In this document: one piece after another, positions 6,012 to 13,544 of the stretch
How positions within the stretch are numbered: position 1 is the first letter of the stretch
Layout of the letters: every line of letters starts with the position of its first letter
Position numbers and translations under genes: made by a program
The notes under the pieces: model-generated
Database searches by the model: none
Told to the model about the DNA's origin: nothing
What the model saw: the letters and a program-made list of their open reading frames with translations, nothing else
Virus record (IMG/VR): IMGVR_UViG_3300020347_000040
Location: 1 to 21,547 of that record
Length of the DNA: 21,547 bases
Origin: a virus
Reading direction: 5' to 3' (one strand)

Positions 6012-8171
6012 ATGGCATTAATGGACAAACCCCTACCAGAAGACGTTACAGATACTGACATTGCAGTACCTCTTGCCGAAGACGGTGACGTAGTAGAGGA
6101 AAATATCAACTATTCTGGGGCAGTGGCCTTTGTTAATAGCCAGTATACCCGCTCAAAAGACGCCAGATATGCTGACGAAGAGCGTTGGCTGGATTCTTAT
6201 CGTAATTATCGTGGCCTATACTCCTCAGAAGTACAATTTACTGAAACTGAGAAGTCTAAGGCCTTCATTAAGGTAACTAAGACTAAAGTTTTAGCTGCCT
6301 ACGCCCAAGTTGTAGACGTATTATTTGCAGGATCAAAGTTTCCTATCGGTATTGAGGCCAGACAGTTCCCTAGTAACGTAGCTGGAGAGGTTTCCTACAA
6401 TCCAAACGCCCTAACCGACGAAAAAGTTAAGGAAACGGTAGACGTAGACTACAAAGTACCTACCTCAATCGCTCGACCGCAGCTTGCCAAGGAGTTAGGC
6501 CTCTATAAAGAGCGTCTGGAGCCAGTTAAAGACGAGCTAGAGCTAGGCGCAGGTACTATGCAAGGTTCTATTACCTTTGAGCCAGCTAAACGTGCCGCTC
6601 AGAAAATGGAAAAGCTTATGCACGATCAGTTGGATGAGACTGACGCCCCTAAGCACCTTCGATCAGTAGCATTTGAGTGTACCCTCTTTGGAACCGGCGT
6701 ATTCAAGGGTCCATTTGCTACCGACAAGGAATATCCTCGCTGGGATGAGGACGGTAACTACGATCCCATGTTTGAAACCATCCCAAAGATGGAATACGTC
6801 AGCATTTGGGATTTTTACCCTGACCCAGACGCCCGTAATATGTCTGAGGCTGAATTTACTATACAGAGACACCGCCTGAACCGCACTCAGATGCGCTCGC
6901 TAAAGAAACGCCCCCACTTCCGCGAAGAAAGCATAGAATTAGCGGTAGACTACGGCACAGATTACCAGCGTGAGTACTGGGAAGACGCCTTAGAAGACGA
7001 TTCAGTATCATCTTCTATGGAACGCTACGAAGTACTCGAATATTGGGGTATATTAGACGCAGAATTGGCTGAAGAAGCTGATATTGATATCCCCAAGGAA
7101 TTAAAGGATCAGGACGAAATACAGGTCAATATATGGGTCTGTAACGGACAAATACTGCGTCTAGTACTAAATCCGTTTACTCCTACCCGTATCCCCTACT
7201 TATCCGTACCCTACGAGCTTAATCCATACAGCTTCTTTGGAATCGGCGTAGCTGAGAACATGACAGACACGCAACTGCTTATGAACGGCTTTATGCGGAT
7301 GGCCGTAGATAACGGCGCTCTATCAGGAAACTTACTTATAGAGGTAGATGAGACTAACTTAGTACCCGGACAGGATATGTCTGTGTATCCGGGCAAAGTG
7401 TTCCGCAGACAAGCTGGAGCGCCCGGACAGGCTATCTTCGGTACTAAGTTCCCTAACGTATCTCAAGAGCTTCTAATGATGTTCGACAAGAGCCGACAGC
7501 TTGCTGATGAGGCCACAGGCATACCTAGCTACTCACATGGCTCTGGAGCCGTTGGTGGAGTAGGACGTACAGCGTCTGGTATGTCGATGCTGATGGGAGC
7601 AGCCGCTCAGAACATTAAGGCAGTGGTCAGGAATATTGATGACTACTTACTAGGGCCGTTGGGTAAGAGCCTCTTCGCATTCAACATGCAGTTTAACTTC
7701 GACAAGGAGTTTATCGGAGACCTAGAAGTTAAGGCACGGGGTACTGAGAGCCTGATGCGGAATGAGGTACGCAGCCAGAGGCTCCTGCAGTTCATGCAGA
7801 TGACTGCTAATCCCTCCATGCAGCCGTTTGTGAAATACGACTACATCTTACGTGAGCTTGCGTCCTCTATGGACTTGGATGAGGACAAGATACTCAACGA
7901 TCCGCGTGAGGCCGCTATACAACAAAAGATGATGTCTGAAATTCAGGCACTTATGCCTCAACCGCCGGTTCCCCCGCAAGGAGCCGCACCAGAAGGTGGA
8001 CCACCCTCACCCAATGACCCCACAGGCAACGGCGGCGGTAACATAGCCGCAGGAGCAGCCCCAGAGCCTGACGCAGCCGGTTTCACAGGCGGTGGTGGGG
8101 GAGCCAACGGGGGTAATGCACCGCAGCCACAGCAAGCTCCTCAGCAAGCGCCACAGGGTCCAGTACAGTGA
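6012..8171 (+). CDS. Portal protein (719 aa)
   Basis: The portal forms the ring at one capsid vertex through which DNA enters and leaves. The call rests on position directly after terminase, length (podovirus portals are about 550-750 residues) and local patterns: VWDFYPDP-like text (SIWDFYPDPDAR), a long acidic clip or wing region, NPYSFFGIGVAENM, RQLADEATGIPSYSHG, and a helical crown. Residues from about 650 to the end are a Pro/Gln/Gly-rich low-complexity tail, probably disordered. The gene starts two bases after the terminase stop and has only a weak GGA ribosome site. Its stop overlaps the next start. Confidence 0.85.
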   Translation: MALMDKPLPEDVTDTDIAVPLAEDGDVVEENINYSGAVAFVNSQYTRSKDARYADEERWLDSYRNYRGLYSSEVQFTETEKSKAFIKVTKTKVLAAYAQVVDVLFAGSKFPIGIEARQFPSNVAGEVSYNPNALTDEKVKETVDVDYKVPTSIARPQLAKELGLYKERLEPVKDELELGAGTMQGSITFEPAKRAAQKMEKLMHDQLDETDAPKHLRSVAFECTLFGTGVFKGPFATDKEYPRWDEDGNYDPMFETIPKMEYVSIWDFYPDPDARNMSEAEFTIQRHRLNRTQMRSLKKRPHFREESIELAVDYGTDYQREYWEDALEDDSVSSSMERYEVLEYWGILDAELAEEADIDIPKELKDQDEIQVNIWVCNGQILRLVLNPFTPTRIPYLSVPYELNPYSFFGIGVAENMTDTQLLMNGFMRMAVDNGALSGNLLIEVDETNLVPGQDMSVYPGKVFRRQAGAPGQAIFGTKFPNVSQELLMMFDKSRQLADEATGIPSYSHGSGAVGGVGRTASGMSMLMGAAAQNIKAVVRNIDDYLLGPLGKSLFAFNMQFNFDKEFIGDLEVKARGTESLMRNEVRSQRLLQFMQMTANPSMQPFVKYDYILRELASSMDLDEDKILNDPREAAIQQKMMSEIQALMPQPPVPPQGAAPEGGPPSPNDPTGNGGGNIAAGAAPEPDAAGFTGGGGGANGGNAPQPQQAPQQAPQGPVQ

Positions 8172-8386
8172 TGGATAAGCAGTTCTTCAAGGGTCTCCTA
8201 CCCTTAGTCAATGACAAGGATCAGTACGCCTCTCTGAAGGACTATGCCAATGCCCGTATCAAGCAGTATCACGGCCTCTTGGAGACCATGAAGGACCACA
8301 GCCGTGTGTTGGAGATTCAGGGTGCTATCGCTGAATTGAAACGGATCGAAACTCTTCGGGATGAAGTAATTAAGGGAGCCGAATAA
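8171..8386 (+). CDS. Conserved small helical portal-adjacent protein (71 aa)
   Basis: ATG 8171 overlaps the portal stop (TGATG); the GTG at 8168 is an alternative that adds one residue. The protein is wholly helical in appearance: MDKQFFKGLLPLVNDKDQY, then YANARIKQYHGLL and a final helix with LEIQGAIAELKRIETLRDEV. I recall this short protein as a regular neighbour of the portal gene in marine podoviruses. Its function is not known to me; a role in portal or prohead assembly is inferred from position only. Its stop overlaps the next start (TAATG), and AAGGGAG near its end provides the next gene's ribosome site. Confidence 0.75.
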   Translation: MDKQFFKGLLPLVNDKDQYASLKDYANARIKQYHGLLETMKDHSRVLEIQGAIAELKRIETLRDEVIKGAE

Positions 8387-10398
8387 TGGGTCTGTACGAG
8401 TTTATGTTTGGCGGCGGCGAGAAGGTAGAAGATGACCCTGAGGAAACCCAAAAAGGTATGGGCTACGGCGAGCTAATATTAGACAACGTCATTGGCCTAG
8501 ATAACGACTATGACAGCTTTGGTGAGAAGCTAGGACGGACCATCAACGAAGATGAAATTGGCTTTGTGAAACAGGCTGGTCAGGGCATCTACGAAGGGGC
8601 CAAAGACTTTATCAAGGCTCCAATAGAAACCACCAAGGAAGCGGTAAAAGAAGTAGCCACTAGCACTAAGGACTTATTCACTAAAGACTTGGATGAACGC
8701 CTACAGGAAATGTACGGCGTGGATATGACCTCTGCTACCGGAGATCAAATAACAGCCGCAAGAGAAAGCGTTATGAGTGATGCACTAGGTGCGTCTGCTC
8801 TTATCCCAGCGGCGGGTGTGGGTATCAAAGGTGCTAAGGTACTAGCCAGCGCAATGCCTGAAGTTGAGTTTGATCCTAGTACTGTAGGCATGAATATGGG
8901 TAATGTTTCATTTAAGCCTAAAGATTCTAAAGATGAAACCGTACCTGCCACCGTAGCCCAGCAAACAGAAAACATGCTCGACATAGATCGTCGGGTAGAT
9001 ACTCGACTACCCACCTCTGAAAAATCTCCAGATTTTGCTCGAATGGGGGAAGGTGAATTAGTCAGTGATGGCGATGCTATGTTTAGCGCCAATACGAATA
9101 TGGCAGAAAACTTTGCTATGATGGCAGAGTATTACCCCGGAATGAAGAACCTCTGGTCAGACGATGTAGCTGAAACTAGAGCTAATGTTACTGAGCAAAT
9201 GACAGGTAACATTGTTAGCCTGTATGATATGTCAGATCGTCTAGGTATAGCTGGGGAATCTAAGCAGTGGTACAAAGGTGCTAATCGAATTGCTTTAGGT
9301 CTATCTAGTCGTTTTGGAGTACAGGACACAAAAGCCGCTGGAGTATTAGCTGCATTATCGCCTCAGAAAAACTGGTTTGAGAACGTAGCATTAGCAGAAC
9401 GTCTAATTAAACATCATACTGAATTAGGGCCAAATGCGCCTTGGTCTCAGGCGATGGATGATATTACCATTACCGTACCACCAGCACGTAAAAAGCAGGG
9501 TACTACATCCTTCCAAGACCCACCTAAAAATGCTAAAATTTTAGAAAGCGTTAAAGGAAAAACGTGGGGCGAACTAGAAACTCCTGAGCAAAAAGGCATG
9601 TGGCTTAGAGCTTATGATGAAGCTCATTTTGGCAGACAGTTCAGAGAAGTTAGTCCTGAAGGGGATATACTAGGTTATTCTACTACAAATGACGGAACTC
9701 CTGCATTAGCTTCTCACCAAGGGTTCAGTACATTAGCTAAGGTAGTACGTATTTTAGAAGGTGACGGTACTCTCAATTCCATTTCACCGGAGCTAGGAAA
9801 AGAACACAAAGTTCGTAACTTCTTTAACAACATTCTTAATCCTGACAGCCCTAAAGACGTTACCGTCGATACGCACCAAATTGCGGCAGGTTTATTTAGG
9901 CCATTAGGTGCGGGTTCTGTCGAAGTTAAGCAAGGCCTCAGTGGAGGTAATGTAACGGGAAATCCCGCTATATTCTCTAATGAGGGTAAAGCTACTAGCG
10001 GAATGGGTGGAACATATGGCTTGTATTTTGATGCAACCAGCGAAGGTGCGAAGCTAAGGGGTGTACTTCCTAGAGAAATGCAGTCTGTTTCATGGGAACA
10101 GTTACGCACACTATTCCCAGACACCTTAAAAAGAGACAAGTCTTTTATCGCTGCTACAGAAGCTATTTGGAGAATGGTTGATGACAAGCAACTTGATCCT
10201 GAAGGCGCAAGAAATCTGATCATAGCTGAAGCAGAGAAGCGGGGTCAGACTGAAGATAAATTAATACCTTCTTGGAAAAACTATAAAGGCAAACGCAGAG
10301 ATATTGGTATTGCCACCACAGGTCTCATGGGAGCCGCTGGTCTAGCTACCGCAGAAGAAGCCCCTGCCGAAGAAGAAGGCTTTGCCACTCCCCAGTAA
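8386..10398 (+). CDS. Probable internal virion protein with HhH-GPD DNA-glycosylase-like domain (670 aa)
   Basis: Residues 1-165 are acidic and helical with a hydrophobic Ala/Gly stretch (ALGASALIPAAGVGIKG), as in proteins packed inside podovirus heads. Residues about 280-510 carry marks of the HhH-GPD fold: LAALSPQKNW with N333 (compare LLSAQATD in endonuclease III), a hairpin-like PELGKEHKVRNFF (468-480), and VTVDTH at 492-497. K475 and D495 line up with the lysine and aspartate of bifunctional glycosylases. Residues 500-625 are unrecognised; the end has a short hydrophobic segment (IGIATTGLMGAAGLATA) and an acidic tail. The gene sits between portal and scaffold, where virion proteins are coded. 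I recall related phage domains with the LSP..W..N and VTVD pattern (DUF7178-like), so the enzymatic reading is an inference. Confidence 0.6.
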   Translation: MGLYEFMFGGGEKVEDDPEETQKGMGYGELILDNVIGLDNDYDSFGEKLGRTINEDEIGFVKQAGQGIYEGAKDFIKAPIETTKEAVKEVATSTKDLFTKDLDERLQEMYGVDMTSATGDQITAARESVMSDALGASALIPAAGVGIKGAKVLASAMPEVEFDPSTVGMNMGNVSFKPKDSKDETVPATVAQQTENMLDIDRRVDTRLPTSEKSPDFARMGEGELVSDGDAMFSANTNMAENFAMMAEYYPGMKNLWSDDVAETRANVTEQMTGNIVSLYDMSDRLGIAGESKQWYKGANRIALGLSSRFGVQDTKAAGVLAALSPQKNWFENVALAERLIKHHTELGPNAPWSQAMDDITITVPPARKKQGTTSFQDPPKNAKILESVKGKTWGELETPEQKGMWLRAYDEAHFGRQFREVSPEGDILGYSTTNDGTPALASHQGFSTLAKVVRILEGDGTLNSISPELGKEHKVRNFFNNILNPDSPKDVTVDTHQIAAGLFRPLGAGSVEVKQGLSGGNVTGNPAIFSNEGKATSGMGGTYGLYFDATSEGAKLRGVLPREMQSVSWEQLRTLFPDTLKRDKSFIAATEAIWRMVDDKQLDPEGARNLIIAEAEKRGQTEDKLIPSWKNYKGKRRDIGIATTGLMGAAGLATAEEAPAEEEGFATPQ

Positions 10399-10407
10399 GG
10401 AAATTTT

Positions 10408-11313
10408 ATGAGCGAACAAGCTGAATACGAGAAGTACTTAGGTGACCTCTTTGAGATGGAGCAGAAGTACTTACGGGAACGCTACCCCGAAGACTTTGAG
10501 GAGCAGGACCGGCTGGATGCCTTAGAGGACGCCAGAGATGAAGACGGCAACGTAACCTTTAGAGATGTTGCGAAGCTAGGTCTCATGGGCGTGATGCTAG
10601 GCGGTCAGAAGTTAGGATTCAACATGGGTCCGGTCTGGGAGTCGATTAAGGGCAAGGGCTTTGCATTAGGCGGCGTAGCTACCGCCACTAAAGGAATTAC
10701 CACACAAGAGGGAAAAGACATGGCAGCTAAGAAATTTCAAAGGGATGACGCCAAGGCCGACACTAATGAAGACGGCGAACTATCCACCCGCGAAAAGGAA
10801 GTGGCTGATGCTGTTCAAAAAAATGAAGTGGTAGAGATGTATCACGGCGGCATGGCTTGTGGCTGCGAAGGAGACTGTGACGGCTCTTGTGGCGGTATGA
10901 TGGACGGTATCATGGGATATGACGAAGTCTCTGGTAATCCTATTCCCATTGGCTCTCACGCAGAGAATGTACGAGATGATATAGACGCCAAACTGAGTAC
11001 AGACGAATACGTCTTACCGGCTCACGTAGTTAAGTGGCACGGGCTGAAGCACATTCAGATGATGCAGTCCGAAGCGGAGATGGGTCTGATGTCTATGCAG
11101 ATGACCGGCCTAATCCAACACGCAGAAATGTCTGACGCTGAAGTAGTGGAAGACGAAGAAATCGATGAACCCGAAGAGGGTGTCGATATTGAGGTAGCTA
11201 CCGTTCAGGTGGATGACCTCTTGGATGATGAAGAAGCCTACGAAGAAGAAGCTTCCTCAACATCTAAACTCCCCGGAATGCTGAAAAAGCAGAAGTACGC
11301 ATTCGCAATTTAA
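10408..11313 (+). CDS. Structural-region protein with EF-hand-like loop and cysteine cluster (301 aa)
   Basis: Residues 1-110 are acidic and helical, then hydrophobic (VAKLGLMGVMLGG). Residues 118-129 (DTNEDGELSTRE) fit the EF-hand calcium loop at positions 1, 3, 5, 6, 8, 9 and 12. A poorer copy lies at 42-53 (ARDEDGNVTFRD), lacking the first acid. Cysteines 151, 153, 157 and 161 form a CxCx3Cx3C cluster. Residues 190-216 match a segment I know from many marine phage proteins, of the pattern DDI.A.LS..EYVLPA.VV.WHGL. The C-terminus is acidic and probably disordered. Ribosome site AAGGA lies six bases after the preceding stop region. The job is unknown; position between portal and scaffold suggests a virion or assembly protein. 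Confidence 0.75.
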   Translation: MSEQAEYEKYLGDLFEMEQKYLRERYPEDFEEQDRLDALEDARDEDGNVTFRDVAKLGLMGVMLGGQKLGFNMGPVWESIKGKGFALGGVATATKGITTQEGKDMAAKKFQRDDAKADTNEDGELSTREKEVADAVQKNEVVEMYHGGMACGCEGDCDGSCGGMMDGIMGYDEVSGNPIPIGSHAENVRDDIDAKLSTDEYVLPAHVVKWHGLKHIQMMQSEAEMGLMSMQMTGLIQHAEMSDAEVVEDEEIDEPEEGVDIEVATVQVDDLLDDEEAYEEEASSTSKLPGMLKKQKYAFAI

Positions 11314-11353: not shown

Positions 11354-12121
11354 ATGCAGAAGCAAAAGTATAGTCGCACACCTGAAGCGGAAGATGAATT
11401 AACATACAGCCAAGAGATGGCACAACAGCAACCTACTGAGCAATTAGACGCTGAAGAGGAGAGCTACAAGAAACGCTATCAGGACATACAACGTCATATT
11501 CAGACGGTGCGTGATCAGAAGGATCAAGAGTTAGCCACAGTTAAGAAGCAACTAGACGCAGCAACTCGCAAGCAAATACGCTTCCCTAAAACCGATGCGG
11601 AAGTAGAGGCATGGTCTAACCGCTACCCCGATGTCGCTAAAATCGTCGATACTATTGCCCGTAAGCGAGCTAACGAGGCCTTACAGGAAGGTGAGCAGCG
11701 TCTTAAAAACGTAGAGAACTTTGAGAAGTCTCTTCACCGGCAAACCGCAGAGCAACAGCTTATGCAACTACACCCAGACTTCGCTCAGATTAGGTCTGAT
11801 CCAAAGTTCCATGAGTGGGTAGCTCTACAGCCGTCTGCAATGCAGGACAGCGTATATAAGAATAATACTGACGCTACTTGGGCATCACGTACAATTGATC
11901 TGTATAAAGCCGATACCGGCAAACGCCGCTCAAGCAAGTCGGCTGCTCAGGCAGTAAGCCGTACCTCATCCTCTGCCCCAAGCACAGGCGGTAAAGCTAC
12001 CTTCTCAGAGAGTATGGTACAGGCAATGAGTGACCGTGAGTACGAGGCTAACGAAGAAGCCATTAATGCTGCTATCTCCTCTGGAGCATTTGCATACGAC
12101 ATTTCTGGCGCTGCCCGATAA
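11354..12121 (+). CDS. Capsid scaffolding protein (255 aa)
   Basis: Scaffolds guide coat assembly and then leave the prohead. The call rests on position directly before the coat gene and on composition. The protein is highly charged and helical, with coiled-coil segments at about 30-75 (EESYKKRYQDIQRHIQTV...) and 100-135. The middle has the pattern LHPDFAQIRSDPKFHEWVALQP, which I associate with T7/N4-type phage scaffolds. A basic Ser-rich linker (about 188-215) and a final helical segment (about 220-250) could be the coat-binding end. A clear ribosome site, AAGGA, lies six bases before the ATG, after a 40-base gap. It is the last gene of the P3 operon before the coat promoter. Confidence 0.8.
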   Translation: MQKQKYSRTPEAEDELTYSQEMAQQQPTEQLDAEEESYKKRYQDIQRHIQTVRDQKDQELATVKKQLDAATRKQIRFPKTDAEVEAWSNRYPDVAKIVDTIARKRANEALQEGEQRLKNVENFEKSLHRQTAEQQLMQLHPDFAQIRSDPKFHEWVALQPSAMQDSVYKNNTDATWASRTIDLYKADTGKRRSSKSAAQAVSRTSSSAPSTGGKATFSESMVQAMSDREYEANEEAINAAISSGAFAYDISGAAR

Positions 12122-12485: not shown

Positions 12486-13544
12486 ATGGCATTTCCAAAG
12501 GCATCAGGTTATTCTAACCTCAATTCGGGCAATTTCAGCCCAGTAATCTACTCGAAAAAGGTCCAGAAGGCTCTGAGGAAGGCGTCTGTAGTAGAGTCAG
12601 TTACTAACACTGATTATTCTGGAGAGATCGCTAACTTCGGTGACTCTGTAAAGATTATTAAAGAACCAGATATCACTATCACAACATATGAGCGTGGTAC
12701 GGCTCTGGCTACTCAAGACCTTACAGACGCTGATTTCACTATGGTTGTTGATCAAGCCAACTACTTTCAGTTCGCTATCGACGATATTGAAGAGGCACAC
12801 TCTCATGTGTCTTTTGGTGATTTAGCAAGTGACCGTGCTGGTTACAAACTGCGTGATACTTTTGACGCAGAAGTACTTGGCTACCTATCAGGTTGGAAGA
12901 CACCTTCCTCATGGGCGCGGCGTTCAGCATCAGGCGATATTAACGGTACTAAAGCCGATACTAACGCTGGCAATGATGAAATGTTGGCTGCTAACAAGTT
13001 GGACATCACAGACTTCGGTGGTTCTGACTTAGGCAATGCTGGTGAAGTTACTTCTATCCCAATCGCCGTTGGCGGTGGTGCTGGTGGTATCACTTCTCCA
13101 TTGGCAATCTTAAACCGTATCGCACGGCAGATGGACCAAGCCAACGTAGACACAGATGGCCGCTGGGTAGTAATCGATCCAGTATTCGCAGAAGTGTTGA
13201 TGGACGAGTCTAGTAAGCTTATTAACGCTGACTTCGGTGGCGGCGATGAGTTGCGTAACGGACGCTTGCCCGGAACACTGCGTGGGTTCTCAATCTACAA
13301 GTCTAACAACCTTCCATACGAAGGCTCAGGCGCTGGCGTGGCACTCTCCACCGGCTCTGAAACTAACTTCGGTGTGATGGTTGCTGGTCATGCATCTGCG
13401 GTAGCTACGGCTCAACAGATTGCCAAGACTGAGACCTTCCGGTCACCTACTACATTCGCGGATGTGGTGCGCGGCATGAGCCTCTATGGTCGGAAGATTC
13501 TGAGACCAGAGGCGTTGTTCACAGCGAACTACAACCTCGCATAA
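12486..13544 (+). CDS. Major capsid (coat) protein, HK97-fold type (352 aa)
   Basis: The coat protein builds the icosahedral head. The call rests on position after the scaffold, typical length, and patterns I know from marine podovirus coats: NTDYSGEIANFGDSV near residues 42-56, ITTYERGTALATQDLTD, the helix VDQANYFQFAIDDIEEAHSH, and the C-terminal ...SLYGRKILRPEALF. Gly/Ala-rich loops and the long spine-like helix fit the HK97 fold, though no structure prediction was run. The gene stands alone: own promoter P4, long leader, and an intrinsic terminator 12 bases after the stop, which would allow high output independent of its neighbours. Confidence 0.9.
   Translation: MAFPKASGYSNLNSGNFSPVIYSKKVQKALRKASVVESVTNTDYSGEIANFGDSVKIIKEPDITITTYERGTALATQDLTDADFTMVVDQANYFQFAIDDIEEAHSHVSFGDLASDRAGYKLRDTFDAEVLGYLSGWKTPSSWARRSASGDINGTKADTNAGNDEMLAANKLDITDFGGSDLGNAGEVTSIPIAVGGGAGGITSPLAILNRIARQMDQANVDTDGRWVVIDPVFAEVLMDESSKLINADFGGGDELRNGRLPGTLRGFSIYKSNNLPYEGSGAGVALSTGSETNFGVMVAGHASAVATAQQIAKTETFRSPTTFADVVRGMSLYGRKILRPEALFTANYNLA

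Follow-up and report, generated by a model that had tools for sequence, protein, structure and literature searches.

A probable OGG/AGOG-like HhH-GPD domain in the DUF7178 protein encoded between the portal and scaffold genes of an HMO-2011-type marine phage

Why would a gene lying among the head genes of a tailed phage encode a protein with active-site residues resembling those of DNA glycosylases? The question is raised by IMG/VR record IMGVR_UViG_3300020347_000040, analysed over a stretch of 21,547 nucleotides (hereafter the window). The record is that of a 21.5 kb podovirus, kin of HMO-2011-type marine phages, in which the genes of terminase, head and tail come one after another (Table 1). 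The gene of interest occupies the slot between portal and scaffold and encodes 670 residues (P0001). An earlier note, made from the letters of this DNA, had read there the elements LSPQKNW..N (residues 324-333), K475 and D495, the last two being 20 residues apart, and all of them are present as it described. Elsewhere in the window, a small ORF (843-1292) resembles a recombination endonuclease VII / HNH protein, and the gene in the matching area of Roseobacter phage CRP-738 is annotated “putative endonuclease VII”.

Comparison with Pfam identified DUF7178 (PF23802) as the sole recognised domain of the slot protein (86.4 bits for a gathering score of 27, E 3e-24), making it a member of the very family that had been named for comparison. 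The protein also matches PHROG 3842 (E 4.5e-23), and both Pfam and PHROGs list the family as of unknown function. The nearest described protein, gp40 of CRP-738 (64% identity), is annotated “hypothetical”. The whole slot protein contains no cysteine, hence no Fe-S cluster, as had been noted earlier, and the C-terminal Fe-S cysteines of Nth and MutY are thus absent from it. A search of the literature retrieved no paper naming DUF7178, and the plasmid collection yielded just two Bradyrhizobium matches (79 residues).

Table 1. Features of the portal-to-coat region and of the slot protein (positions in the window)
Feature	Position	Strand	Basis and remarks
Portal protein, HMO-2011/SU10 type	6012..8171	+	Pfam SU10_portal; 90% identical to the portal of Roseobacter phage CRP-738
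Small gene (71 aa) after the portal and before the slot gene	8171..8386	+	position conserved in relatives
670-aa slot protein gene (P0001) with DUF7178 domain	8386..10398	+	Pfam PF23802, PHROG 3842
N-terminal region, residues 1-239	8386..9102	+	hydrophobic segment 129-147; variable among relatives, with inserts of ~80-250 aa
DUF7178 / HhH-GPD-like domain, residues 240-620	9103..10245	+	AlphaFold, Foldseek
Helix AGVLAALSPQ-K-NW..N, residues 315-333	9328..9384	+	equivalent of EndoIII LLSAQATD..VN; hhalign register
Insertion of ~95 residues, about 350-446	9433..9723	+	in the virion-type clade; lacking in solo DUF7178 proteins
K452	9739..9741	+	invariant; aligned with EndoIII SKAENI motif
K475 (catalytic Lys equivalent) and F479 at K+4	9808..9822	+	161/161 sequences; K475 codon 9808-9810
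D495-T-H497 (catalytic Asp equivalent)	9868..9876	+	D 161/161, H 99%; D495 codon 9868-9870
Q566-x3-W570	10081..10095	+	161/161; putative base-reading and base-stacking equivalents
301-aa neighbour (orf301)	10408..11313	+	fused C-terminal to the DUF7178 domain in L016, L054, CRP-3 and CRP-212
Probable scaffold protein	11354..12121	+	PHROG 13678, without assigned function there; role from position, since the gene precedes the coat gene
Major head (coat) protein	12486..13544	+	PHROG 267

The fold of the domain was predicted with AlphaFold from residues 240-620 together with 78 natural sequences, and the resulting model (pLDDT 94.1, pTM 0.90) displays the helix order of HhH-GPD: a helix ending in LSPQ, the W..N helix, the insertion and the K452 helix, then a helix (463-470), a short hairpin and a helix (474-484) beginning beside K475, which starts the second helix of the helix-hairpin-helix. 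D495 caps the N-terminus of helix 496-503 and the C-terminal helix bears Q566 and W570, the placement of K475 and D495 being that found in HhH-GPD enzymes. The earlier note had placed the site at 9301-9910, an interval which does lie within the domain but covers only its middle, leaving Q566 and W570 outside; as folded, the domain spans about 9163-10245 (residues 260-620). Against the PDB, the most probable Foldseek match of the window domain was Pa-AGOG (1xqp), with non-significant values (prob 0.38, TM 0.27). As the insertion spoils this comparison, a compact member of the family was folded instead, the free-standing (solo) protein of Anabaena phage A-4L (pLDDT 89.6, pTM 0.84). Its model retrieved Pa-AGOG at rank 1 (prob 1.00, TM 0.48/0.45, E 0.056), followed by many OGG1 structures (prob 0.66-0.98), with unrelated matches below 0.2; no E-value fell under 0.05 and the TM stayed just below 0.5, so that the AGOG/OGG1 result is strong by ranking and weak by significance.

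Profile comparison places the same elements in register, though weakly. With hhalign, the solo profile aligned over 156 columns with a profile of 32 Nth/MutY/AlkA-type members in the expected register, pairing SP..W..N with SAQ, KA with KA, G-K with G-K120 and VDRH with VDTH138; the score of 22.0 exceeds the best value of 100 column shuffles (20.2) and that of the reversed profile (13.1), at an HH probability of only 2.7%, the hhalign comparisons together giving 3-5%. No match to PF00730 (HhH-GPD) was obtained at E<=1 for the 78 DUF7178 members, nor at the DUF7178 loci of 10 virus records, and phmmer and profile searches of PDB sequences gave nothing relevant, their sole sequence match, the 1xju lysozyme (E 0.96), being noise.

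Conservation was assessed by aligning 161 non-redundant domains, whose identities go down to about 25%. A scan of viral contigs found 33 close relatives of the slot protein, and two alignment-based scans of viral contigs each gave at least 550 confirmed matches, of which 80 each were retained. K475, F479, D495, Q566 and W570 are identical in all 161 domains, conservation reaches 100% (rounded) for K452, S325, W330, N333 and Y296, and it is 99% for W295 and H497; S325, W330 and N333 are the invariant residues of the LSPQ..W..N helix. Since the patterns used for scanning (KVRNF and T[VI]DTH in one scan, VIAALS and QxxTWV in the other) included some of the pocket residues, a separate count was made for every residue in the set retrieved independently of it: the Lys, the Phe at K+4 and the Asp were found in 72/72 solo proteins, retrieved by patterns devoid of these residues, and the Gln and Trp of Q-x3-W in 57/57 long-form domains unselected for them. 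The copies of CRP-3 and CRP-212, so divergent that BLAST missed them, yet keep the Lys with Phe at +4, VDTH and QSMGW. The Phe at K+4 occurs in none of the 32 cellular Nth/MutY/AlkA-type proteins. The 83 long-form domains all fall in a single clade of the tree (support 0.915), and within the insertion R408, D411 and R420 are invariant (alignment A1, 11 sequences). The earlier note had staked its reading on the fold and on K475 and D495 being kept by homologues: the model is HhH-GPD-like, closest by Foldseek ranking to 8-oxoG glycosylases, and both residues are kept throughout.

The catalytic pair of endonuclease III is K120 and D138, and the residue that reads the N7-H of 8-oxoG in OGG/AGOG enzymes is of the G42, K207 or Q31 type. 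In Pab-AGOG, 8-oxoG is sandwiched by W212 and F146, with K142 and D174 as catalytic residues and D208 reading the base (PMC9638937), and the corresponding residues named for human OGG1 are K249, D268, H270, Q315 and F319 (PMC3397491). By order, spacing and fold ranking, K475, F479, D495 and Q566-x3-W570 appear to match these base-holding residues of 8-oxoguanine glycosylases. DUF7178 shares with AGOG, its top structural neighbour, the succession of Lys, Phe at K+4, Asp and acid/amide-x3-Trp, but has no significant sequence similarity to it, carries Gln where AGOG has Asp208 and shows a K-D spacing of 17-24 instead of 32. With human and bacterial OGG1, the equivalences are K249 to K475, D268-x-H270 to D495-x-H497 and Q315-x3-F319 to Q566-x3-W570, the D-to-Q distance being 47 in OGG1 and 46-55 in solo DUF7178 proteins (peaks at 48 and 53); however, DUF7178 lacks the N-terminal beta domain, has Phe instead of Cys at K+4, and Trp instead of Phe as the stacking residue. 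The insertion of the virion-type clade has no known counterpart in AGOG or OGG. The likeness to E. coli endonuclease III (Nth) put forward earlier holds for the order of its elements (LSxQ helix, KA motif, G-x-K hairpin, VDTH), whereas the nearest kin are OGG1 and AGOG. Nth possesses an Fe-S cluster, and its residue at K+4 is Val; neither is found in DUF7178, whose hairpin is also shorter and without the LPGVG sequence.

In the relatives of this phage, a conserved succession of genes runs from portal and 71-aa gene through the DUF7178 protein and orf301 to scaffold and coat, and the position that the earlier note had called unusual for a DNA-repair enzyme proves to be a recurrent cargo slot. 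Rhizobium/Sinorhizobium phages have a hydrolase-like domain alone as slot cargo, and CRP-235 has only orf301 there, indicating that the DUF7178 domain is dispensable in that place. In one relative (L038, 5692-7605), the slot protein shares only residues 139-205 with that of the window and lacks DUF7178; cargo was apparently swapped behind a common N-terminal segment, and the persistence of these residues makes the N-terminal region possibly a packaging or translocation module. A single polypeptide comprises both the DUF7178 domain and orf301 in L016, L054, CRP-3 and CRP-212, making orf301 a likely partner of the domain within one virion assembly. The orf301 product of the window contains a Cys-rich stretch, CGCEGDCDGSCGG, as well as LSTDEYVLPAHVV, which we take to be a motif of phage internal or tape-measure proteins.

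A cell-wall hydrolase (Hydrolase_2) precedes the DUF7178 domain in L016, L054 and CRP-3, and a Glucosaminidase is fused to it in L100. In farther relatives, DUF7178 is combined with ART-PolyVal, InPase, RadC, LPD22, LPD38 and methyltransferase domains, in proteins of up to 3313 aa; a survey of polyvalent proteins packaged in virions describes domains of these kinds, its main text mentioning no glycosylase domain (Iyer et al. 2017, PMC5512222). The window protein shows one recognised domain only but, as is the case for polyvalent ejected proteins, it is encoded among the virion genes of a phage with portal and terminase. From the portal-scaffold slot and the fusions with hydrolases and polyvalent-protein domains, we infer that the slot protein is likely packaged and ejected. 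The literature search retrieved no virion proteomics of HMO-2011-type phages.

DUF7178 also exists in a free-standing format. Solo proteins of about 200 aa, mostly encoded outside head gene clusters, retain all the pocket residues; they include SIO1 gp9, A-4L ORF03, S-CRES3 gp63 and mycobacteriophage “glycosylase” genes. Their neighbours (terminase, C5 methylase, ThyX, endonuclease VII, T7-like RNA polymerase) indicate no single function. ThyX-type genes occur near solo genes at 6 loci (raw count), with L146 and L164 among the methylase- or ThyX-adjacent cases. In phages CRP-1 (gp03, L041), CRP-207 and CRP-13, the family is represented by a solo gene close to the left end of the genome (MZ892987 13-588, MW514247 13-588) and not by the slot version found elsewhere, so that the HMO-2011-type group uses the domain in two formats. 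An apparent portal-DUF7178 fusion, suggested by the “portal protein” label of Tunturiibacter phage Tunturi_3 gp111 (L243, PP885686.1 74402-74998), was rejected, the product being a 198-aa solo protein and its label a probable misannotation; this gene adjoins one annotated as ATP-dependent DNA ligase.

Taken together, these data lead us to regard as probable that residues about 260-620 constitute a divergent, Fe-S-free OGG/AGOG-like HhH-GPD glycosylase, borne as cargo on a virion protein which exits the head along with the genome. Computation establishes the family, the conserved residues, a confident fold and the gene context, whereas catalysis, choice of base, packaging, ejection and purpose are put forward here as a proposal. 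The helix-hairpin-helix (463-484) and the SPQ..W..N helix would clasp the backbone of the DNA and occupy the gap, while the target base would be flipped, stacked between F479 and W570 and read by Q566. D495 would drive the breaking of the glycosidic bond, and an attack of K475 on C1' would give a Schiff base and then a strand nick; the domain would perhaps combine glycosylase and AP lyase activities. Arriving with the incoming DNA, such an enzyme could already be at work in the opening minutes of infection, and its simplest purpose would be to clear, before replication, the oxidised purines gathered by free virions in sunlit sea water.

The main rival to repair keeps the same fold and chemistry and turns them to conflict: the enzyme would excise bases, whether normal or modified by the host, from the DNA of the host or from competing DNA, or would strip a defence-installed modification from incoming DNA, as a mirror of bacterial Brig1. 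Bacterial DNA glycosylases are indeed known as anti-phage weapons (PMC11078745), the domain occurs in polyvalent proteins along with the conflict effectors ART-PolyVal and RadC (PMC5512222), and a C5-cytosine methylase family gene lies, as a raw count, within 2.5 kb of the solo gene at 9 of ~78 loci. The pocket is however of the oxidised-purine type, with an F/W sandwich and a Gln on the Watson-Crick face, and not obviously suited to modified pyrimidines, and Brig1 is a member of the uracil-DNA glycosylase superfamily, whose fold is another (PMC11078745). We consider such a role unlikely.

Still less credit is given to the idea that the fold merely binds DNA, in packaging, genome organisation or threading, and excises no base. 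HhH motifs grip the DNA backbone non-specifically (PMC3397491) and the gene does sit among head genes; on the other hand, a Lys, an Asp and a full base pocket that are invariant in 161 sequences and persist in CRP-3 and CRP-212 would be unexpected for a mere binder, and the solo members are found outside head gene clusters.

An unpackaged enzyme, expressed late and nicking or repairing DNA inside the cell, for example during head filling, is a further reading. Packaging of the slot protein is deduced from its context, and in some relatives (L061, L065, L066) the DUF7178 gene is upstream of the portal gene and not downstream; the single-polypeptide fusions with peptidoglycan hydrolases and polyvalent domains nevertheless point to ejection and make this explanation improbable. 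Thymine hypermodification involves HhH-fold pyrophosphorylase/transferases (aG/PT-PPlase), which are relatives of HhH-GPD. A base-hypermodification role of this type is very improbable in spite of the occurrence of these enzymes in marine phages (PMC9599517), as DUF7178 members have no Pfam match to aG/PT-PPlase at E<=1, as the candidate enzymes of phage M6, gp51 and gp55 (identified by gene order), could not be aligned with DUF7178 and were ruled out as its kin, gp51 having Met at K+4 and gp55 Glu in place of the Lys, and as modifying newly made DNA needs no ejection.

Returning to the reading of an ejected OGG/AGOG-like glycosylase, the enzymatic guess taken by itself has precedents, since “glycosylase” or “N-glycosylase/DNA lyase” is already the label of solo DUF7178 proteins in some phage records; the virion-borne form, in turn, seems undescribed. 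The analysis offers a testable function for a Pfam family with at least 550 confirmed matches in each of two viral-contig scans, and would extend the set of enzymes seemingly injected by phages along with their DNA by a domain of the base-excision type. Evenly poised is the broader proposition that tailed phages inject base-excision enzymes, with one OGG/AGOG-like clade, in proteins of about 500 to more than 3000 aa, editing phage or host bases before phage gene expression. As the cultured marine phages CRP-738, CRP-3 and CRP-212 have the domain in the virion slot, both its packaging and its activity are directly testable. If active, the domain could provide genome repair in transit, or a new means of attack or counter-defence at entry.
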